A DNA stretch of 52,236 nucleotides from a virus, in the IMG/VR virus record IMGVR_UViG_3300006921_000023, positions 1 through 52,236 of that record; one strand, given 5' to 3'. Both the position numbers and the translations under genes were made by a program. Shown piece by piece: positions 1 through 49,185 of the stretch; position 1 is the first letter of the stretch; each line of letters starts with the position of its first letter. Under the pieces are notes generated by a model. It was not told the origin of the DNA and made no database searches. It was given only the letters and a program-made list of their open reading frames with translations.

Positions 1-3000
1 GCAGTACCTACACTCAAGTCAATCAATGAACCTGCATCATTGTTGTTCCAGTTATTAGATTGTATTTTTCCAGTTCTTACTTTATCACCTGATATTGATG
101 TTGTTCCTCTGTATGTAGATTGTTGTGAAGTTCTATATCCTACTACCATGTACTCATCACCATCTTCAGTTGTTGACATTAAGGCAAATGGTGCGGTTCC
201 TTCAAATAACATTCCTGAATTGTGGATACCAGATCCTCCAGTTGTGGATGATCCCACATCTATAGATAATGGTATAACTTTACTTGCCGCTGATAAATCA
301 TAAGTTGCATATAATTCAGTTTGACCGTTTCCTTGCAGTTTGAATGCTTTGATTGTATTCGGTTCAATACTTAATATTTGGAAACCATTTACATCGTGCG
401 GAACAATATATCTATCACCTAACATTTCAACTGGGATTGCATATCTTCCAGCTGCGCCGGCTCCATCACCATCTTCAATAATTTGGAATGGAGTATTCGA
501 AATGTAATAGTCTCCGTACGATCCACCAGTTTGGCCAGTTGGTACTATTTTTTCATATTCGTCACCTAGACTGAATCCATCTACTGGTAGCAATATTGTT
601 TCACCTTTACCTGCTATGACTTGTTTACTTGGTGGGAATACTCCCATCAAATCAGTAGTAGATGATGCCCCATATCGATGATATGCTAATATTGGTTGAT
701 CTGATTCAATTTTTACATACTTTCCAAAATTTTGAGTGTTCTCAAGTGATGATGTTACGCCAGGATCAGCTCCAAAGAAGTTGAAATCATCGGCAAATAA
801 TCCATCATTTACATCTGAATGCGACATTGTTACAGATGCTGATGCGTATGGAGAGAATATGTTAATTTTAGCTGAAGTAGTAGAATCATCACGACGTGAT
901 TTTATATAGAATTCTTTTGATAGCATTGTGAAAGGCAATATTGCATTACCCGTATCATCAGTTACTATCTGTATTGGTTTATCTGCATCAATTATATAAC
1001 CACTTTGTAAATCTTGATATCCCCATTCTCCTACAAAATATTGTTCTGGTTGTACTGATGCTGATATTATTTCACCAGATGCAGATGTTATTGTTATTTG
1101 TGTATTTGGTTCATAAGTTGCATAGAAGATTCTATTTGTAGAATCCATAGTATCCATAACTACCCATTTAGAATTTGCTGAATCATATGCATCTGGTTGT
1201 AGTCCTGATTGGCCACTTACTCTCAATTCTGCATTGTTGATTTGTATATTACCAAATTTATCAAATTCAATAGCTCCACCCGCTAATTGTCCTGCTCCAC
1301 TACCACTTAAAATTATTTCTTTGTTTGGTCCGATTGATATTTCTTCATTGGATGAACTTAAAGCGATGTTGTCTGATGCAAATCGTCCGTCTGTTAAACT
1401 CCATCCTGCAATATCACCTTGACTTGCTGATATCGATCCACTGAAGATTGCACTACCAGATGCTTGTAGATGGAAGTTGGAAGATGATATTTCTATGTTA
1501 CCACCCGAACCAGATACGAATGCACCTTCTTGAGTTGCAGCATCTGCTGGTGTTCCAATTCCAAAGAAGAATGAAGATCCACTAAACTCTAAAGATGAAC
1601 CTGAAATTTGTACTCCTTGTGGGTTGATCATTAAATGTGCTGCGTTACTTGCTGATAAGACATTAAGAGCTATACTGGCTGTTGTTTGTTCAATACTAGT
1701 GACGTCTCCTTGCAACGTTTCAACAGTTGATGTTATATTCGTTGCAGTAACTGAAAGACTTGCGCTTGATTGTACAGCAGAAGTCACATCTATAATAGTG
1801 AAACCATCTATCTGCATTGCAGTGTCATCTTGATGATGATTGACTATCATCATTGGTCTTACATACTTGGTTCCTGTCTTGAATACGTTATAAGGATCCC
1901 CTCCATGTTGGTTATCAGCTGCATTGTTGTCAATTGCTGCAGCTATTGTTGGCCAAGAGCCATCTGCAGATTTTGCATGAGTTGCAACACCAGTTGAAGA
2001 TGTGCTTTCTCCCGTGATTGATCCACTAAAATCATACCATCTGTGGGGATCAGTTTGAGGATTGATAGCTTTTGAAGCTATGAAATATCTATGTGTGCCT
2101 GGATCTTCACTTATATGGTTACCATATTCATCTAAACATATAAATCCTGCATAGAAGTTTGTTGAAGTATGGCCGGCAGATCCTTTATGAGAAACTCTAA
2201 ACTTAACCCGTCCTTGATAAACTCTTGAAGTATCAACTGGAAAGGCTTCAGATCCTACTATTTTAGCGTAATTACTTGAAGTTGCTGTAGATCTGAACTC
2301 CATTGCTTTACCAAATCTTGATCCGGTTAAATCTGATCCAGACGCAAGGTGTGCAAATTTCATTGTAGCTTTTTTAACCGATACATCATCTATATATGCT
2401 ATATCGTCATGATGTACCATATAACTTAAATGAGTGGTAGTATCTTTTGCTACGAAATAAGCTACTCTTTCTACTGCTAGAGCATTACCTGCAGCTGCAT
2501 AAACATGTAAGTATTCACCAGATGGAGTACCATGTGGATTTGCTGTAGCTCCATGAGATGTTCTAAGATAGGCTGGTTGTGCGTTGGTTGTTCCCGTTCC
2601 ATATTGTGGTGTTAGGTGCGCCACTACTTCGTAAGTAGCTCCTACTTCTGTTGAGAACGATTGATAGATTCCCTGCCAACCATATGAACCACCACCACCC
2701 GTTATTTTTAATCTACCAGCATCATGTGATATGGTTGCTCCTGGATAGGCAGCTATAACAGCCCAACCATTGGTATTACTAGCGAATGTTGGATTTGTAA
2801 GAAGTTCAGACTGAGCTGATCCTAACGTACCTGATGTATAGGCTATTCCAGCAAGATGAGTAGCTCCATCAGAAATAAAAAGTTCATCTAAATTTGATCC
2901 AATCGAATCAAGGCCAGCGTAATTACCACTTCCCGCGCCATCCGAACGGTAATGGTCTTTATTCCATCCCGCATATCCTTGTGACCAATCTTGATTGAAG

Positions 3001-6000
3001 AACTGTGATCCAGTTGTAAGTCCTTGTATATTTTGTACTGATAAGTTAATTGATCCAGTCGCAAGTTCTAATGCTGATACTGAACCTTCTAATGTACCTG
3101 ATACTGTGTTCAGTGCTGATACAGATGCATTGATTGATCCAGTTGTTATCTCAAGTTGTGATAAACTTGCTGATTGATCTGTATTAGTTGCAACTGTTAG
3201 ACCGATACTGTAAGCATTCTGATTGATTGATGAGTTTGAAGCTGAGATAGAAGATGAAATCGTTGAAACGAAACTTCCCGAATCTATTTCTAGTTGTGCT
3301 ATACTTGCTGATGCATCTCCTGCTGTTAAAGATAGAGATCCAGTTATTTGTAATGTTGATCCATCCCAAGCTAACTTATCACCTAGACTAAATATACCTT
3401 CTTGGTTTACAGACAGTTGAGGCCAAGTTCCCACCGTACCCGAAGATCCTATATTGAATGCATAGATATATGCAGTTGTTTGATGGGCTGTGAATGAAAT
3501 TTTTCCTGCATTGTAGCCGGTATTACTAGTATCAGACTTTGTAACTCCATTTACTCCAGCATTATATGTTGTAGTGTCTGATATGTAGAATGACCAAGTT
3601 CCTGTGGAAGATGGAATGATCCAATTGAAGTCATATTTAAGTCCGACTACTAAATTAGTGATCGCTTGATAACCATATCCATTTGTAATTAAATTTGTTA
3701 CTTCAGGGGCATTTGTAGTAGTTAAATGACCACCACCTATTGTCCAACCGGTTGTTCCATCTGTTAATGATCCGTTTGTTAAGAAATCGGATCCAGAATC
3801 TCTAGCTACGAACGGAGTATTACTACCTTTCCAATCTCCCGTTCCAAGGAATAATTTTTTATTTGTACCATCCAACGTCACACCTTCACCTGCAGTACCT
3901 ACTGTGAGTTTATTTGAGATGTATCCATCTGCTCCTGCTATATTTGGTGAGTAGATTGATGTGCTTGTTATGAATGTACTTGATCCAGAATATTGACCGG
4001 TTGCGATTGCAGTACCTATATCAATAAATGAACTTATATCTGTTGTTGCTTGTGTGACTTTTTTAACTGCTGGTTTTGCCCAAAGTACGTATGGTGTATC
4101 GTCATCTGCACCGTATGCATCCACATTGTGGAAAGTTCGTATAGAACACCATTTGGATCCTGAACCCCAGATGTAGTCAGTAGTCTGTTTAACCTTTCTA
4201 CCAGTTACAGTATCATACATCCCACCTTTATAGGTGCCATCATAGAAAGATGAAGAACCGTGTATATATGCTACAACTAGATACCAACGATCTTGTTGTC
4301 CTCCTCTACCTCCATCTGCAATGGATTGTGTGAAGTTTCCTTTTGAAGATACTCCATCTCCTGAGAGCGAGAGGAAGTATGGATTCCAGTTAGCTGTATT
4401 TGGAGTGGCAGAGTGATATCGCATTCCTCCCATAGCAGCTCCCGCTGCATATGCATTCCCTGAAGATGCATACTCAGCAAGGTCATAAAGTATCCCATTT
4501 GGTCCCCAAGAACCTACTGAAAGAAATTGTGGCCAATTTTTATGTGCAGCATCACCTGGATTTGTATGTGAACCAGATGCACCTTGGAATACATTATCAT
4601 CTCCAGAACGTGCTCCAATGTACCAAGAACCAGTCATTCTAGATTCACCTGGGAAGTTTACATACATAGAAACTTGGTATGTTTGCATGTGATCTACCTC
4701 AAACCAATCCGTGTAAAAACCACCACCGTCTGTATCTGAATCTGGTGATGCTACCCAAACTTTTTCGTTGAGTCCATGTGGTCCGACTGACATTGATATT
4801 TCATTGTCTGTTGTTTCACCAATTTTATAATAATTTGGTGTTGCTGATTGAACCCATGGATCTGTTATAGATAAATTAGAAAAATCATTTAATATATTTT
4901 CGCCTGGTAGCATTGTACTACCAAATGATAAGTTAACTGCTGGTCCTAATCTTACGCCATCTGTTTCATCATATTGTATGAAACTTCCAGTTGGATTTCC
5001 ATCACCGATATATGCTCTTGGTGCACCCGAGTTATTTTCTAATTGTATTCCAGTTCCACTAAATTTAGATGAGCTTAATGATAATTTTCCTGCTGCATCT
5101 AATCTAGCATCATTCTTGAATATTGATCCGGAATCAACTGTCCATCCACCGATCAATGCTTCGGATGCTGTTACATCTCCTTCGATAAGTCCAGCACTTG
5201 CTGAGAATGCTCCATCCTGATCAACTTGGAAATGAGATGATGATATCATGTAAGTACCATTTGGTTCTAATTTAATCTTATTACCGCCATCTGTGAATTT
5301 ATCTGATTCTATTTTCCATCCAGCTATATTACCTGCAGATGCTGATACCGTACCTTCAATCGTTAAATTTGTTCCATCAAAATATAATTTTGCAGTATCT
5401 GCTAATCCACCTAGATGTAGTTTACCTCCATCAAGGTCAATCATTGAACCTGCATTATTGTTATTCCAATTATTTGATTGTACTTGTCCAGTTTTAATTT
5501 GATCACCTGATATAGTTGTACCAGTGCTAGTTCCAGCTGGATTCAGATAAAGAGCTCTTACTTGTCTTTCTGATAAACTTCCGGTGTATATTCTTATCTC
5601 ATCTATTGATCCATTCCATCCATGTCCGTAATTTACTGCATATTCACTACTGGCTAGATCTGCACCTCCTCCAATTCGTGTGAAACTAAAACCTGCTTGA
5701 CTAGTTCCAGTTGCTGTCCATGCATCCGTACCTTCCAGTACTCCATCAATATATAATTCGTTCAGTTGATATTTGGATACTAGTACATAGTGGTGCCATT
5801 CTGTGTCAGCTACTACGTTTGAAGTCCAGCTGGAATGATTACCTCCAGTGTTATCTGTTCCTTCATGATTCCATCTAAACTTACCTCCCGATACACCGAT
5901 GTCAATGAAATTATTAAATGGAGATCCATATAATATTCTTTGGTATTTAGTGTTGGTGGAGCCATCTGTTATAGAGTTTCGTCTGGCCCAGAATGAGATT

Positions 6001-8375
6001 GCAAATGCATTATCAGTACCATAGGAATCAACAGCTGTTGTTGGTATATCAACATATTGACCTGACCCAGAGTTAGGTACTGTAATAGCTGTGAAGCTTA
6101 ATGCTTTACCAGAAATCGATCCTGATATTCCAGAACCTGATATCCAAGTCGGCAGTCCGTTTGGTGTGCCTGTGGAAACAGTTAGCGTTCCATGTGCTGC
6201 TTCTCCTGATTGATCTAATGCCGTGCTTCCCGTTCCTTGGTTAAATGAATAATGTCGAATTAAGTTTTGATCTGATGGAAGTTGTGGAAGAGATCCTACT
6301 GATAACTGACCACCTACAGTTACTGAGCTTCCTATTTCAACCGAACCAGTTATTACACCCGAACCTTTGAATAAGAAATCTGATGCTGTTATCTGTCCTG
6401 TAGATTTTAATACTAAATTATCATTTGAACTTGAGATGGTTGCTGTGTCAATGCTGAATCCACCTATGTCGCCTGATAGAGCTGATATTTTTCCAGTCAG
6501 ATAAACATTCTCTGAATATAATCCATAGCCACTCAATGCACCGAATGTTGGATCTGTTATTCCTGTTAAGTTTCCTAACCGTGCTTTTATTTTATCTGAT
6601 GTATTAAATGCAGCGTGACTATCTACTCCATCTATAACATCTATATATGGTGAGTTTGTATCTTGAGCTGTTAAGTATATTGCAGCATCTCTATCAGTAT
6701 CAACTGTGCTACCTATTCTCACATAATCAAAACTTGATGATGGTGGAGTTGTTCCCCCGTCTACCACTGCAATTACAGATCCACTATCACTTCGTGAAAC
6801 CACAATCATGTTGGACTGATATACATTTGCACCGTCGAATTTCTGAGCTCTGATTAAATCACCTCTGACAAATCCATGGTCTAATGCATCACTTCCAGTT
6901 TCAAAATATAATGAGTGTGATACGCCACCAGCTATATATCCACCAATATGAGATGATGATATTATTTTTCCTGCGTTGGATATCCATAAAGATCCATTAG
7001 TAGCTCTTACTTGATTTGCAACTAATTCATATACTTGGAATTCACCACGAACGGATAATCTATCGAATTCTGCAAATGTTCCATTCGATCCAGATCCTAT
7101 TCTAAATCCAGATCCCGCGAATCCACTGAAGTAGGAAGGAGAGCTGATAATATTTGTAGATCCATCTCCTACAATCATATCACCATATACTTGTAATTTA
7201 GCAACTGGATTACCTGACGTTAATCCTATAGCGGTATCTCCACTATCTACATCTATAGTGAATAAATTATTTGTAGAACCACCTTTTCGAATTGTAAGAT
7301 GGTTATCATTACCATCATATACAAAACCTGCTCCACCATAATGAGGTGATGCACCTGTAGAATTATCTGCAAACCATAGAGATGCTTGTGATGTAGAATC
7401 TTCATCTCCAAATAGAGTCATAACTACATTTGCAGTTCCGTCACCAATCTGCAGATCTGCTGTAGAAGCTGCCGTATTGATTCCTACATAACCACTCGTA
7501 TTGATCATGAAATTAGGAGTAGTTGTATCTCCAAACCAAATATAATCCTCACCGCCAGTACGTGTTTCCGTATCTACCCTAAGACCTATTCCTGATCCGT
7601 TAAGTCTCGTGTTAACATCTAATCGGGCTGCAGGACTTGATTGTGCAATACCGACATTTCCCTTCATATCAATTCTAAACGTTTCAGCTAATCCATCTGG
7701 AACACCATCTGCTGCAATATCTCTTTCTTGTTCAATCACAAAGTCTGCTGCACCCCCTGCTGTTCTTTGAGCTCCTAGTTTTACACCATATCGATCTAAA
7801 GTAGTATTGGGACTTGTCTTAAAGAATATAGCTGTTCCTGCACCAGCTGTATATGAGTCTTGTTGAAGAACTTGATATGTTGTGAAAGTATTTGCTGATG
7901 ACTGACTTAGTTCTAGCAGTGCGTGAGGATTAGCTGTTCCTATACCAACATTACCACCTTGTGGAATTTGTATGATTGGATTACCTGCTGTTCCAATTTC
8001 TAAATTATTGCTCGATTTCCAGTCAATTTTTCCATGGCCTCCATTTATAGAGAAGGAGAATGTATGATTGTTTCCTGAGGGATTTGGTAGTCCGAATTCG
8101 TAGTTGTAACTTCTTTCAGTCATCTTCAATAATGGACGATCTGAATATGCACCAGTTTGAGTTGTTCCATCGGATGTTTTATTTATATGTAAGTGGCCTG
8201 TGGGAGAAGTAGTTCCAATACCTATCATTGGGCCATAACCCTTAGTACCAGAAACTGATGGGATAGTGCTACCAGCTGTTGAGTGTGATACGTATAAGGC
8301 TGTGGATTCTGATACTTGTATATCGTATCCAGCGCTTGAACTTATATGTCCGTCATATATAAAAATATCTGCCAT
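1..8375 (-). CDS. Giant fibre-like structural protein (C-terminus outside window)
   Basis: One reading frame stays open from an ATG at 8375 to the left edge, giving at least 2790 residues; its stop is outside the window. The start follows the upstream gene's TAA by one base. The N-terminal half carries VGIGT-type repeats typical of phage fibre shafts. A LamG/ConA-like domain lies at about residues 700-945 (starting LIRHYSFNQGTG, with WHHYVLV and SIDEIRIY). Alanine/serine-rich helical repeats (about 1680-1790) and two jelly-roll-like segments starting FLTNGSLTDG (about 1526) and LLTNPTFASN (about 1855) follow. Modules of the GGW/AGWxI type recur. LamG and jelly-roll folds often bind sugars, so a receptor-binding tail fibre is the likely role; that is inference. 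No S74 chaperone domain is visible, but the C-terminus is missing. Confidence 0.8.
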   Translation of the reverse strand, partial: MADIFIYDGHISSSAGYDIQVSESTALYVSHSTAGSTIPSVSGTKGYGPMIGIGTTSPTGHLHINKTSDGTTQTGAYSDRPLLKMTERSYNYEFGLPNPSGNNHTFSFSINGGHGKIDWKSSNNLEIGTAGNPIIQIPQGGNVGIGTANPHALLELSQSSANTFTTYQVLQQDSYTAGAGTAIFFKTSPNTTLDRYGVKLGAQRTAGGAADFVIEQERDIAADGVPDGLAETFRIDMKGNVGIAQSSPAARLDVNTRLNGSGIGLRVDTETRTGGEDYIWFGDTTTPNFMINTSGYVGINTAASTADLQIGDGTANVVMTLFGDEDSTSQASLWFADNSTGASPHYGGAGFVYDGNDNHLTIRKGGSTNNLFTIDVDSGDTAIGLTSGNPVAKLQVYGDMIVGDGSTNIISSPSYFSGFAGSGFRIGSGSNGTFAEFDRLSVRGEFQVYELVANQVRATNGSLWISNAGKIISSSHIGGYIAGGVSHSLYFETGSDALDHGFVRGDLIRAQKFDGANVYQSNMIVVSRSDSGSVIAVVDGGTTPPSSSFDYVRIGSTVDTDRDAAIYLTAQDTNSPYIDVIDGVDSHAAFNTSDKIKARLGNLTGITDPTFGALSGYGLYSENVYLTGKISALSGDIGGFSIDTATISSSNDNLVLKSTGQITASDFLFKGSGVITGSVEIGSSVTVGGQLSVGSLPQLPSDQNLIRHYSFNQGTGSTALDQSGEAAHGTLTVSTGTPNGLPTWISGSGISGSISGKALSFTAITVPNSGSGQYVDIPTTAVDSYGTDNAFAISFWARRNSITDGSTNTKYQRILYGSPFNNFIDIGVSGGKFRWNHEGTDNTGGNHSSWTSNVVADTEWHHYVLVSKYQLNELYIDGVLEGTDAWTATGTSQAGFSFTRIGGGADLASSEYAVNYGHGWNGSIDEIRIYTGSLSERQVRALYLNPAGTSTGTTISGDQIKTGQVQSNNWNNNNAGSMIDLDGGKLHLGGLADTAKLYFDGTNLTIEGTVSASAGNIAGWKIESDKFTDGGNKIKLEPNGTYMISSSHFQVDQDGAFSASAGLIEGDVTASEALIGGWTVDSGSIFKNDARLDAAGKLSLSSSKFSGTGIQLENNSGAPRAYIGDGNPTGSFIQYDETDGVRLGPAVNLSFGSTMLPGENILNDFSNLSITDPWVQSATPNYYKIGETTDNEISMSVGPHGLNEKVWVASPDSDTDGGGFYTDWFEVDHMQTYQVSMYVNFPGESRMTGSWYIGARSGDDNVFQGASGSHTNPGDAAHKNWPQFLSVGSWGPNGILYDLAEYASSGNAYAAGAAMGGMRYHSATPNTANWNPYFLSLSGDGVSSKGNFTQSIADGGRGGQQDRWYLVVAYIHGSSSFYDGTYKGGMYDTVTGRKVKQTTDYIWGSGSKWCSIRTFHNVDAYGADDDTPYVLWAKPAVKKVTQATTDISSFIDIGTAIATGQYSGSSTFITSTSIYSPNIAGADGYISNKLTVGTAGEGVTLDGTNKKLFLGTGDWKGSNTPFVARDSGSDFLTNGSLTDGTTGWTIGGGHLTTTNAPEVTNLITNGYGYQAITNLVVGLKYDFNWIIPSSTGTWSFYISDTTTYNAGVNGVTKSDTSNTGYNAGKISFTAHQTTAYIYAFNIGSSGTVGTWPQLSVNQEGIFSLGDKLAWDGSTLQITGSLSLTAGDASASIAQLEIDSGSFVSTISSSISASNSSINQNAYSIGLTVATNTDQSASLSQLEITTGSINASVSALNTVSGTLEGSVSALELATGSINLSVQNIQGLTTGSQFFNQDWSQGYAGWNKDHYRSDGAGSGNYAGLDSIGSNLDELFISDGATHLAGIAYTSGTLGSAQSELLTNPTFASNTNGWAVIAAYPGATISHDAGRLKITGGGGSYGWQGIYQSFSTEVGATYEVVAHLTPQYGTGTTNAQPAYLRTSHGATANPHGTPSGEYLHVYAAAGNALAVERVAYFVAKDTTTHLSYMVHHDDIAYIDDVSVKKATMKFAHLASGSDLTGSRFGKAMEFRSTATSSNYAKIVGSEAFPVDTSRVYQGRVKFRVSHKGSAGHTSTNFYAGFICLDEYGNHISEDPGTHRYFIASKAINPQTDPHRWYDFSGSITGESTSSTGVATHAKSADGSWPTIAAAIDNNAADNQHGGDPYNVFKTGTKYVRPMMIVNHHQDDTAMQIDGFTIIDVTSAVQSSASLSVTATNITSTVETLQGDVTSIEQTTASIALNVLSASNAAHLMINPQGVQISGSSLEFSGSSFFFGIGTPADAATQEGAFVSGSGGNIEISSSNFHLQASGSAIFSGSISASQGDIAGWSLTDGRFASDNIALSSSNEEISIGPNKEIILSGSGAGQLAGGAIEFDKFGNIQINNAELRVSGQSGLQPDAYDSANSKWVVMDTMDSTNRIFYATYEPNTQITITSASGEIISASVQPEQYFVGEWGYQDLQSGYIIDADKPIQIVTDDTGNAILPFTMLSKEFYIKSRRDDSTTSAKINIFSPYASASVTMSHSDVNDGLFADDFNFFGADPGVTSSLENTQNFGKYVKIESDQPILAYHRYGASSTTDLMGVFPPSKQVIAGKGETILLPVDGFSLGDEYEKIVPTGQTGGSYGDYYISNTPFQIIEDGDGAGAAGRYAIPVEMLGDRYIVPHDVNGFQILSIEPNTIKAFKLQGNGQTELYATYDLSAASKVIPLSIDVGSSTTGGSGIHNSGMLFEGTAPFALMSTTEDGDEYMVVGYRTSQQSTYRGTTSISGDKVRTGKIQSNNWNNNDAGSLIDLSVGT
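18..101. repeat. Direct repeat in giant fibre gene, copy A
   Basis: About 84 bases here resemble 5436-5519 at roughly four bases in five by eye. On the minus strand it encodes TGKIQSNNWNNNDAGSLIDL; the other copy encodes TGQVQSNNWNNNNAGSMIDL. The repeat marks a duplicated module. Confidence 0.8.
5436..5519. repeat. Direct repeat in giant fibre gene, copy B
   Basis: Second copy of the module seen at 18-101, same frame and orientation, about 5.4 kb apart. Confidence 0.8.
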
Positions 8376-44017: not shown

Positions 44018-44629
44018 TTATATTATTTGGTCAATAACTTTTATTTCTAATGCTTTATCAGCTGTTAGCCAGTAATCCGTTCTTTGTATCTGATCCCATT
44101 CCTCAGCTGATAATGTACTTTTCTCACTCAATATTGTATTAGACATTTTGTCTATTTCAGATACATGGTGTATACTTGCTTTAACATCAGCCTGTTTACC
44201 TTGTAGCCAAGTAGATGATTGGTGAAACATAATTGTTGAATGTTTACTAGCATATCTAGCTCCTGTTCCACTAGCCAATATGACTGCAGCTGCTGAGAAA
44301 GCTTTTCCTCTACATATTGTATTTACTGGAACGCTTAGTGATTTCATATAATCTATGATTGCCAACATTTCGTATACACATCCACCTTCCGAGTTAATTA
44401 TCATATTGATCGGTTGATCGATAGTCTCTTCCGTTCTGTTATTTAATATAGTTCGAATACGAGTCATCATATCGAATAGCGTGTACCCATCAATCTCTCC
44501 AACTAAATAAATAACGCTATCCTGTATGTCGAATGCGTATGTTATTTCATTGAACGTTTCTTTATTAGAGTTATCTTGTTTAATATCCTCTTTTCTGATT
44601 GGAGTGGGTTTATCATCGTATATTGACAT
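44018..44629 (-). CDS. ClpP-type serine protease
   Basis: The 203-residue protein is a ClpP family member: S112 in GKAFSAAAVILASG, H136 in STIMFHQSS, D185 in TDYWLTADKALE, and the INSEGG oxyanion motif at about 79-83, all in the expected order and spacing. Length matches bacterial ClpP. In cells ClpP is a tetradecamer fed by ClpX or ClpA, neither of which is encoded here. Phage ClpP-like enzymes often process capsids, but this gene lies with lysis and nucleotide genes, far from any head gene in this window. With the tmRNA and Hsp20 about 4 kb away, a protein-quality role is an alternative. AAAGGGA lies before the ATG. Confidence 0.93.
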   Translation of the reverse strand: MSIYDDKPTPIRKEDIKQDNSNKETFNEITYAFDIQDSVIYLVGEIDGYTLFDMMTRIRTILNNRTEETIDQPINMIINSEGGCVYEMLAIIDYMKSLSVPVNTICRGKAFSAAAVILASGTGARYASKHSTIMFHQSSTWLQGKQADVKASIHHVSEIDKMSNTILSEKSTLSAEEWDQIQRTDYWLTADKALEIKVIDQII

Positions 44630-47426: not shown

Positions 47427-47636
47427 TTACTTGTCTTTAGTACCAAATTTACACTTTAACCAAATACGTTCATGGAAGTAATATAGAATAAATTTAGTAA
47501 ATAATTCTAATGCTCCAATCTTTAAGCCTACTGTTGCACTACCAGTTATGATCCATCCTAGAGCCATTGTGTCCAATGTTCCTACGATTCGCCAGCTGAT
47601 TGTCTTTAGTAGACTTCTTAATTTAGTTACGTTCAT
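47427..47636 (-). CDS. DUF2061 small membrane protein (69 aa)
   Basis: The protein has the DUF2061 pattern: SLLKTISWRIVGTLDTMALG at the start, a central membrane-like helix with GWIITGSATVGLKI, and the ending YYFHERIWLK. Family members are short inner-membrane proteins of unknown function found in bacteria and phages. An AAAGGAAGG lies before the ATG and a rho-independent terminator lies about 30 bases after the stop, so it ends a transcript that starts at or before the Hsp20 gene 13 bases upstream. Confidence 0.85.
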   Translation of the reverse strand: MNVTKLRSLLKTISWRIVGTLDTMALGWIITGSATVGLKIGALELFTKFILYYFHERIWLKCKFGTKDK

Positions 47637-47649
47637 TCGATACCTTCCT

Positions 47650-48081
47650 TTATTTAATTGTAACCGCCTTTGGCTTACTTTCCTCTGAAAGTGGTACTCT
47701 TACTTTCAACAATCCATTAGCCATCGTTGCTTTTATTTTGGTAAGATCGAATTTCGGACTTACCTTCCATCCCATATCAAAGCTTCTCCTAGCTATACCT
47801 TTATGAATATAGTCAGGTGCTTCAACATCTGATGGGTTTGATTCTACACTTGGTTTTTTATAAGCAACCTTCAAAGTATTGCTTTCTATTGTGATATCTA
47901 TATCACTTTTTTCCAACCCGACGCATGCAATGTCAAAACATAGTTCGTCCTCTTGTAGAAATACATCTACTGGGTAACTAGGTTTCTGTTCCTGCAATCC
48001 GCGGAACGATGCTTCGCCGTCAAAAAAATTTCTGAATAATAGGTCCGTTGGAAAGAACCTCTCTTGAAAGAGTGTTGTCAT
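47650..48081 (-). CDS. Hsp20 small heat-shock chaperone
   Basis: The 143-residue protein has an alpha-crystallin domain at about residues 38-140, with YPVDVFLQEDELCFDIACVG, GLEKSDIDITIE, the helical IARRSFDMGWKV and the signature MANGLLKVRVP near the C-terminus. The tail K-A-V-T-I fits the IxI/V assembly motif. Such proteins bind unfolding proteins without ATP. Hsp20 genes are known in cyanophages of the T4 group. The gene has a strong AAGGAG before the ATG and an ATATTTATTA motif about 65 bases upstream, so it is probably well expressed. It lies next to the permuted tmRNA, separated by one unknown gene. Confidence 0.94.
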   Translation of the reverse strand: MTTLFQERFFPTDLLFRNFFDGEASFRGLQEQKPSYPVDVFLQEDELCFDIACVGLEKSDIDITIESNTLKVAYKKPSVESNPSDVEAPDYIHKGIARRSFDMGWKVSPKFDLTKIKATMANGLLKVRVPLSEESKPKAVTIK

Positions 48082-48129: not shown

Positions 48130-48567
48130 TTAGTTGCCTTCAATAATAAATATGTACGTATGTACTTTTTCCTGTTTTTTATTTAATCTAAATCTATACT
48201 CAACGAATTTGTTTCCATGGCTCTCCATTAGATCTTTCATCTCCTTGAGCTTTGGCAGATTTTTAGCTGATAGCGCTACCATGTTGTTTACCATAGTAAC
48301 GTTAATCATATCTGATTCGATCATTCCCTTTAATCGTTTAGTATCCTTCACAGGGATTTTTTCTATAGGCGCTTGAAAGTCTGGTATTATATTATCTTTC
48401 AATTTTATATCACCAGACTCAATCCACTCCTCTATATTTTTGAATGCTTTATCTTGGCGCTTCTGAGGTAGACGATCTAACCATTCCCAGATTTCTTCTT
48501 CTGAGAACATCCAGAATTCTGAGTCTGGATTTAGTACATCTTCGATAGTCCATTTGTCTTTTGCCAT
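48130..48567 (-). CDS. Unknown acidic protein (145 aa)
   Basis: I do not recognise this protein. It is acidic and tryptophan-containing in the first 50 residues (FSEEEIWEWLDRLPQKRQDK), with mixed helix and strand later and a beta-like end (VEYRFRLNKKQEKVHTYIFI). I chose the ATG at 48567 because an AGGA sits eight bases upstream; an in-frame ATG at 48576 is three codons longer but has no spacing for a ribosome site. The gene immediately follows the tmRNA in transcription order, so the tmRNA 3' trailer and this leader may be the same RNA. Confidence 0.7.
   Translation of the reverse strand: MAKDKWTIEDVLNPDSEFWMFSEEEIWEWLDRLPQKRQDKAFKNIEEWIESGDIKLKDNIIPDFQAPIEKIPVKDTKRLKGMIESDMINVTMVNNMVALSAKNLPKLKEMKDLMESHGNKFVEYRFRLNKKQEKVHTYIFIIEGN
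48146..48153 (-). promoter_or_regulatory. Candidate late promoter before Hsp20
   Basis: The minus strand reads ACATATTTATTATTG inside the last codons of the 145-aa gene, about 65 bases before the Hsp20 ATG. Confidence 0.35.
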
Positions 48568-48603
48568 GTTTAACATCCTATTTTAATATTACCAACCTCC
48601 ACC

Positions 48604-48636
48604 GGGCTTTAACGACTTGCCCTATTAAATGCCGTT
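48604..48636 (-). other. H-type pseudoknot after the tag
   Basis: Stem 1 pairs AACGGC (48631-48636) with GUCGUU (48611-48616), six pairs including one G-U. Stem 2 pairs GGGC (48619-48622) with GCCC (48604-48607). The order a-b-a'-b' with loops of 8, 2 and 3 bases is an H-type pseudoknot, as found after the tag in many tmRNAs. The 3-base loop across stem 1 is short, so the fold may be tight. A separate perfect 7-bp pairing, CAGGGUG (48713-48719) with CACCCUG (48641-48647), can enclose the tag. Confidence 0.6.
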
Positions 48637-48648
48637 GGGTCAGGGTGC

Positions 48649-48681
48649 CTAAGCCGCCATTGCCATTTCAACTTGTTCGCC
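48649..48681 (-). other. tmRNA tag reading frame (GEQVEMAMAA)
   Basis: Ten codons and a TAG give GEQVEMAMAA. The ending AMAA matches the degradation tails of bacterial tags (ALAA, AMAA, VAA) that ClpXP and other proteases recognise. The first codon is placed at GGC because the bases at -5 and -4 are UA, as in Escherichia coli (U85, A86). A tag starting G-E recalls those of Bacteroidota from memory. The frame lacks its own start codon or ribosome site, as expected for a resume codon. Confidence 0.85.
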
Positions 48682-48807
48682 AGTTACGCGTTGACCTTCC
48701 TCTTATCCTTATCACCCTGTCAAATCCAGTCACCCCCATATCATTGTTCTATTTAGTGGAGGTGGAGGGTATCGAACCCTCGTCCAAAAGTGCAGCTAAT
48801 AAAAGTA

Positions 48808-49185
48808 CTAGCGGTCATTATCATCTTCAATATCCCAATTGGGATCAAAATCCATAAGATCTGCAGGCAACCAATTAGATAATGCTTTCTGTATGGATTT
48901 GAGTCCACTTTTAGATTTCTTTATCTTAACTAGTTCTGCACATCTCTCATACATTTCTATGTCAGGTGCTGAATAATATTCAATGAGTGTTTCTATTAAC
49001 TCATTCATATCAGTATCATCATCCATTGGATTGATGATCATAAGCACCCTACCTTTCCTTACTGATATAGAATCGTAAGTATCTTGTTTAGTGATCAATC
49101 TATACATATTGTCCATAGCTTCTTCGTCGATCAAATCGACGTTTGCAGGATCGTTTATGTCATAGTTATGTTTCATCTTCTGCAT
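48808..49185 (-). CDS. Acidic unknown protein (125 aa)
   Basis: I do not recognise this protein. It is strongly acidic (NPMDDDTDMNELIETL and a DPNWDIEDDNDR end) and probably helical, with no membrane segment. Its stop TAG at 48808-48810 lies at the edge of the tmRNA acceptor piece, so transcription through this gene must run into the tmRNA and the mature RNA would be cut out of the message. Start options are the ATG at 49185 or at 49176. An ATATTTATAT motif abuts the first ATG. Confidence 0.72.
   Translation of the reverse strand: MQKMKHNYDINDPANVDLIDEEAMDNMYRLITKQDTYDSISVRKGRVLMIINPMDDDTDMNELIETLIEYYSAPDIEMYERCAELVKIKKSKSGLKSIQKALSNWLPADLMDFDPNWDIEDDNDR

Follow-up and report, generated by a model that had tools for sequence, protein, structure and literature searches.

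The locus described here raises two questions: whether this virus carries a circularly permuted tmRNA gene that is intact and maintained, and from which lineage such a gene came. The stretch analysed, hereafter the window, is a linear marine virus record of 52,236 bases, a metagenomic contig. Permuted tmRNA is known from three bacterial groups, and the phage copies have been viewed as relatives of these (PMC9004378). An earlier sequence-only reading had proposed a permuted tmRNA gene in the window and had taken most known phage tmRNAs to be one-piece. That premise is outdated: in a 2022 survey of phage tmRNAs, which also described phage Melnitz, 53 of 133 distinct structures were two-piece (PMC9004378), and about a hundred more are present in viral contigs, where a broad pattern scan recovered at least 119 permuted stretches. 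The Rfam model RF04321 (tmRNA_permuted) was built in a study with 79 phage tmRNA sequences (PMC11915505). Permuted tmRNAs are already known from phages, so that finding one here is neither new in itself nor a cause for surprise.

ARAGORN called a permuted tmRNA in the window, with the tag GEQVEMAMAA*. In a cmscan search of the 52-kb window, RF04321 matched at 48816-48640 over the full model length with 68.4 bits and an E-value of 4e-11, above the gathering cut-off of 47 bits for this model. Covariance models and a permuted ARAGORN search were the checks that had been suggested from the sequence, and the gene passed both. The one-piece model RF00023 had no match in the window in the Rfam covariance-model search, and the alphaproteobacterial model RF01849 had none at its gathering cut-off; the match of the betaproteobacterial model RF01850 to the gene, at 49.9 bits, fell short of the 84-bit cut-off. 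The Rfam search found no riboswitch beside the gene, and a blastn search of the gene against named phages returned nothing at 1e-5. The minimum free energy of the gene folded as a single strand has a z-score of -0.34, which is uninformative, as expected for an RNA that is two-piece and pseudoknotted. The RF04321 E-value, the independent ARAGORN call, and covariation that is lost on sliding (see below) place the identification far above chance.

The locus spans 48816-48600 on the minus strand and is flanked by ORFs of 125 and 148 amino acids. The sequence-only reading had placed it at 48600-48812; the locus was right, but its 5' end lies about 4 nt further out, at 48816. The upstream 125-aa ORF (48808-49185, minus strand) ends in the codons GAC CGC TAG, which extend into the 5' end of the acceptor piece. 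This piece (48757-48816, minus strand) is encoded first and contains the P2 3' strands, the T-arm GAGGG UUCGAUA CCCUC (48765-48781), the acceptor-stem 3' strand CACCUCC (48758-48764), and the discriminator A73 at 48757. An intervening spacer of 19 nt (48738-48756) starts with CUA and has no encoded CCA; in the clade of related genes, the spacer ranges from 16 to 22 nt. The coding piece (48600-48737, with an approximate 3' end) opens at G1, position 48737, with GGGGGUGACUGG. The piece ends at 48757 and 48737 and the gap of 19 bases, as read from the sequence, are exact. The acceptor-stem 5' strand GGGGGUG (48731-48737) pairs with CACCUCC in the 7-bp stem that had been proposed, with G3 (48735) opposite U70. 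The P2 5' strands (48693-48718) form three helices with the acceptor piece: 48718-48713 with 48792-48787, 48706-48700 with 48805-48799, and 48696-48693 with 48816-48813.

Both elements that had been read downstream, a tag frame and a pseudoknot, are present. The tag frame, 48681-48649, reads GGC GAA CAA GTT GAA ATG GCA ATG GCG GCT TAG, and GGC is the resume codon. The H-type pseudoknot 3' of the tag (48604-48636) consists of S1, AACGGC/GUCGUU (48636-48631/48616-48611), and S2, GGGC/GCCC (48622-48619/48607-48604). Only 11 nt lie between P2 and the resume codon, without room for PK1, and the whole RNA measures about 200 nt, which makes it a compact design that can be tested directly. This anatomy fits a two-piece product.

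A pattern scan of viral contigs found 38 stretches of the same arrangement, and a broader scan added nine of this type. For covariation, we aligned 39 distinct viral sequences over the acceptor stem, the T-stem, and the three P2 helices in the permuted order. Standard pairs occupy 96.8% of the cells, compared with 46-53% after a shift of the 3' partners by 1-3 columns. Because the structure was derived from the window itself, the unslid pairing has an advantage in this percentage, but such a derivation does not create two-sided changes. Two-sided changes occur in 11 pairs, and none of 500 shuffles reached the covariation score. In the acceptor stem, six of the seven pairs are invariant and the seventh changes compensatorily; the G3-U70 alanine identity pair is UG in 39/39 sequences, and the T-stem is 100% paired. 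The P2 helices provide examples of compensatory change at columns 6/135 (CG in 18 sequences, UA in 9, AU in 8) and 29/116 (AU in 18, UA in 18). The S2 stem of the pseudoknot also covaries (GAAGC/GCTTC, GGGC/GCCC, GAGGT/ACCTC, GAGAC/GTCTC, GGGAT/ATCCC), though the automatic search settled on other pairings in a handful of rows. The tag frame has 11 codons in all 39 sequences, with G first and AMAA-stop last; positions G1, V4, A7, M8, A9, and A10 are fixed, while the third bases of the alanine codons vary. The permuted tmRNA gene of the window virus is intact and maintained. Since the record is linear and comes from a metagenome, one might suspect an assembly artefact, or a remnant, for instance a piece of an att site, with no more than the look of a permuted gene. 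The same order recurs across many samples in about 47 viral contigs, however, and the two halves change compensatorily with each other; we find this reading hardly credible.

Two further observations concern the relatives. Three of them (L025, L042, and L052) have a tag frame that is apparently about 34-36 codons long (GTQIKSVKAG..FA.LAAIRLLATE...AMAA), in which the beginning is similar and the AMAA end is kept; ARAGORN misplaces the tag in these sequences. A conserved non-coding element of about 85 nt (GAGGGTATTAGGAACTCTCACCCTC...GCGTCTGAGACGTCGCGGATAGCTAAAAGAGTTCAGCTGGG) lies between the tmRNA and the next ORF at loci L014, L016, L022, L024, L027, L030, L038 (for example, 845-930), L041, L044, L046, and L047, and is absent from the window. 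It contains a hairpin and a possible loop-loop contact, with apparent covariation by eye; Rfam had no match to it at the gathering cut-offs, nor in a relaxed search with one copy.

The gene shares much with the known two-piece tmRNAs (alphaproteobacterial RF01849, betaproteobacterial RF01850, and cyanobacterial RF01851): the order acceptor piece, spacer, coding piece; the acceptor stem with G3-U70; P2 linking the pieces; and a tag ending in -AA. It differs from them in having UUUGAC instead of UUCGAC, a GGC resume codon, a tag starting with GE, no encoded CCA, a very short distance from P2 to the tag, and a score below the RF01850 cut-off. Members of the window clade have UUUGAC and a GGC resume codon, nearly all are missing an encoded CCA, and their tag usually begins with GE; in most permuted viral genes the motif is UUCGAC, CCA is encoded, and the tag starts with A. 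The clade resembles eight one-piece genes, which we take to be of Bacteroidota type from their GENNYALAA-type tag. In this reference set, which consists of eight tag-selected viral or prophage contigs only, UUUGAC, the missing CCA, and a GGC-GA resume site are each found in 8/8 genes, and most of the clade has the same resume site. Shared with the window are GACUGGxUUUGACAG, UUUGGACG before the T-arm, the GGC-GAA resume site, and the lack of an encoded CCA; the one-piece genes, however, have the normal order, measure about 395 nt, and score 130-153 bits with RF00023, whereas the window gene is permuted and about 200 nt long. None of 17 Burkholderiales genes (7 permuted, 10 one-piece) has UUUGAC; UUCGAC occurs throughout, CCA is encoded in 16, and a GCN resume codon is present in all 17.

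Measured by identity in the tRNA-like domain, it is mostly the Bacteroidota one-piece genes that come closest to the clade among non-members (0.83-0.76). Phylogenies join the clade and these genes with support of 97/96 on 74 columns, and of 99/99 on the 90 columns obtained when the columns at the resume codon are included; in the best trees overall, the bootstrap support for this grouping is 97-100%, within a reference set without Cyanobacteria and most phyla. In AU tests constraining the clade to group with each of five other permuted sets, p ranged from 0.049 to 0.37 on 74 columns and from 0.0015 to 0.19 on 90 columns; three of the ten rival groupings were rejected, one marginally. The tRNA-like domain of the clade thus appears to group with the Bacteroidota one-piece genes, a placement supported on 74-90 columns with most rival groupings unrejected. 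When the crass-like phage sequences described below are added, the tree is blurred, and it does not resolve a permutation event shared with the clade.

It could be argued that the gene was taken from a known permuted lineage (betaproteobacterial, alphaproteobacterial, or cyanobacterial) and converged on Bacteroidota-like letters. Consistent with this are the match to RF01850, subthreshold as it is, the AU tests in which most groupings with permuted viral or Burkholderiales sets went unrejected, a reference set without cyanobacterial genes, and several window proteins whose nearest relatives, among named phages, are in a Microcystis phage. Yet UUUGAC, the GGC-GAA resume site, the absent CCA, and the overall identity are all Bacteroidota-like, the best trees place the clade with Bacteroidota, and the alphaproteobacterial genes examined differ from the clade in T-loop and D-region; we consider such an origin unlikely. 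The likely alternative is a permutation apart from the alphaproteobacterial, betaproteobacterial, and cyanobacterial ones, in a lineage borne by phages; it is consistent with the trees but not forced by them. Phages that differ in host would since then have carried the gene. The sequence-only reading had suggested that, if the host belongs to Bacteroidota, the phage lineage either gave rise to the permutation or acquired it. The window phage speaks against an ordinary Bacteroidota host (see below). The Bacteroidota character of the RNA itself nevertheless lends support to an origin of the permutation among phages. The more specific scenario, a further independent permutation in a virus-carried Bacteroidota-type gene, absent from cellular genomes, that then spread among phages differing in host translation signals, is in our estimate evenly balanced between true and false. 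If it is true, Bacteroidota letters in permuted order would mean that tmRNA can split again within viruses, and the one-piece genes of hosts and of Cellulophaga phage phi38:1 would form, with the permuted genes of phages, a natural series for studying splitting.

Named phages provide further comparisons. Melnitz and the Pelagibacter phage Mosig are likewise marine phages with a permuted tmRNA. The Mosig gene also passes RF04321 (93.6 bits), as well as the alphaproteobacterial RF01849, and encodes CCA; the window tmRNA, compared with it, is Bacteroidota-like. The GenBank crass-like phages cr10_1, cr50_1, cr60_1, and cr125_1 and the Chryseobacterium phage MA9V-3 have a permuted tmRNA annotated as SsrA. 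These five share with the window gene the permuted order (ARAGORN), tags beginning with G, and the lack of an encoded CCA; three of the five exceed the RF04321 cut-off, and most have UUUGAC. Unlike the window gene, they have spacers of 60-214 nt and tags of the form GNxx..., and they belong to other phage families. The tmRNA of Cellulophaga phage phi38:1 is one-piece and of Bacteroidota type. No discussion of permuted tmRNA in Bacteroidota phages was found in the literature searched, whose coverage is incomplete, and the window clade is apparently a distinct, undiscussed lineage of Bacteroidota-like phage tmRNAs. The crass-like tmRNAs L204, L206, L208, and L209 are situated near RAGATH RNAs (RF03146, RF03098, RF03048), and in cr125_1 a RAGATH-9 match overlaps the annotated start of the tmRNA. 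Another permuted viral group (L149, L155, L159, L174, L113, L186, and L193) also has tags beginning with G (for example, GAYNAPLALAA and GTYNAPLALAA) and no encoded CCA, yet has UUCGAC.

A Bacteroidota host had been considered for the window phage. We found Shine-Dalgarno sites before 18 of 35 window genes, with 7.8 expected (17 of 31, with 7.2 expected, under another length cut-off), in contrast to 2/29 in the Flavobacterium phage immuto and 4/37 in Bacteroidota prophages. The window phage does not fit a typical Bacteroidota phage, whose genes are without Shine-Dalgarno sites, and its use of these signals argues against an ordinary Bacteroidota host at present. Nine loci of the clade (L013, L025, L028, L032, L035, L042, L045, L050, and L052) have no Shine-Dalgarno site at all. 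The baseplate protein of L028 is closest to that of immuto (45%), and that of the window is closest to that of the Microcystis phage Mel-JY01 (47.6%). Because both Shine-Dalgarno use and baseplate affinities differ, one tmRNA lineage apparently occupies phages of different hosts.

Over 84,980 species, a genome-wide pattern, which recognises only part of the Bacteroidota-type sequences, found the related permuted arrangement in cellular genomes only in four Burkholderiales and in one contig of a Pelagibacter MAG. This contig (L052, 6443 bp), binned in a Candidatus Pelagibacter MAG, has ORFs in common with the phage contig L025 and looks misbinned. A SAR11 host inferred from this MAG was rejected: L052 carries the L025 ORFs, its genes are devoid of Shine-Dalgarno sites, and the MAG possesses a tmRNA of its own that is different.

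If the gene works as its anatomy suggests, a single precursor would be transcribed, acceptor half first. Host tRNA enzymes would remove the spacer, with RNase P cleaving at 48738/48737 and 3' trimming proceeding to A73 at 48757, and CCA would be added afterwards, since CUA and not CCA is encoded. Pairing in P2 and in the 7-bp acceptor stem would hold the two pieces together, the host AlaRS would charge the RNA via G3-U70, and the host SmpB would deliver it to stalled ribosomes; an SmpB gene is absent from the window record and four relatives. Translation would resume at GGC and add GEQVEMAMAA, a putative ClpXP-type degradation tag that would direct the products to a host protease. A reasonable guess for why a phage has its own tmRNA is extra rescue capacity under heavy translation. 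A degenerate tRNA-like decoy that titrates SmpB or the host tmRNA without full trans-translation would agree with the missing phage SmpB gene and with the short stretch that leaves no room for PK1, and a decoy has been proposed for phage DS6A (PMC11915505, PMC4131195). However, a decoy would need no conserved tag, and here the tag frame is intact throughout the alignment with synonymous-type drift and is followed by a covarying pseudoknot; we regard a decoy as very unlikely. The account as a whole, an intact permuted gene for a two-piece rescue RNA of a phage-borne Bacteroidota-type lineage with a separate permutation, seems to us quite probable.

Most relatives have an element resembling ATATTTAT immediately before the acceptor half (ATTTAT in 30/38), but the window does not. 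On the gene strand of the window, six of 12 copies of ATATTTAT (49193, 48153, 41550, 38104, 25511, and 16229) are located at most 80 nt upstream of ORF starts, and the element is a candidate phage promoter. The downstream 148-aa ORF (48130-48576, minus strand) is of unknown function, with homologues, many of them weak, at part of the clade loci. The strand of the tmRNA also encodes a ClpP-family protease (44018-44629), a DUF2061 membrane protein (47427-47636), and an Hsp20 (47650-48081). The idea that the ClpP-like protein partners the tag was set aside; PHROGs identifies this protein as a head maturation protease, which is its likely role. A quality-control module of the tmRNA and an Hsp20 immediately downstream was rejected, as this Hsp20 occurs at only 4 of the 32 distinct loci in the part of the clade that uses Shine-Dalgarno sites. 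Alternative genetic codes are unneeded for positions 1-8375, where an ordinary frame of 2791 aa extends beyond the left end of the record.
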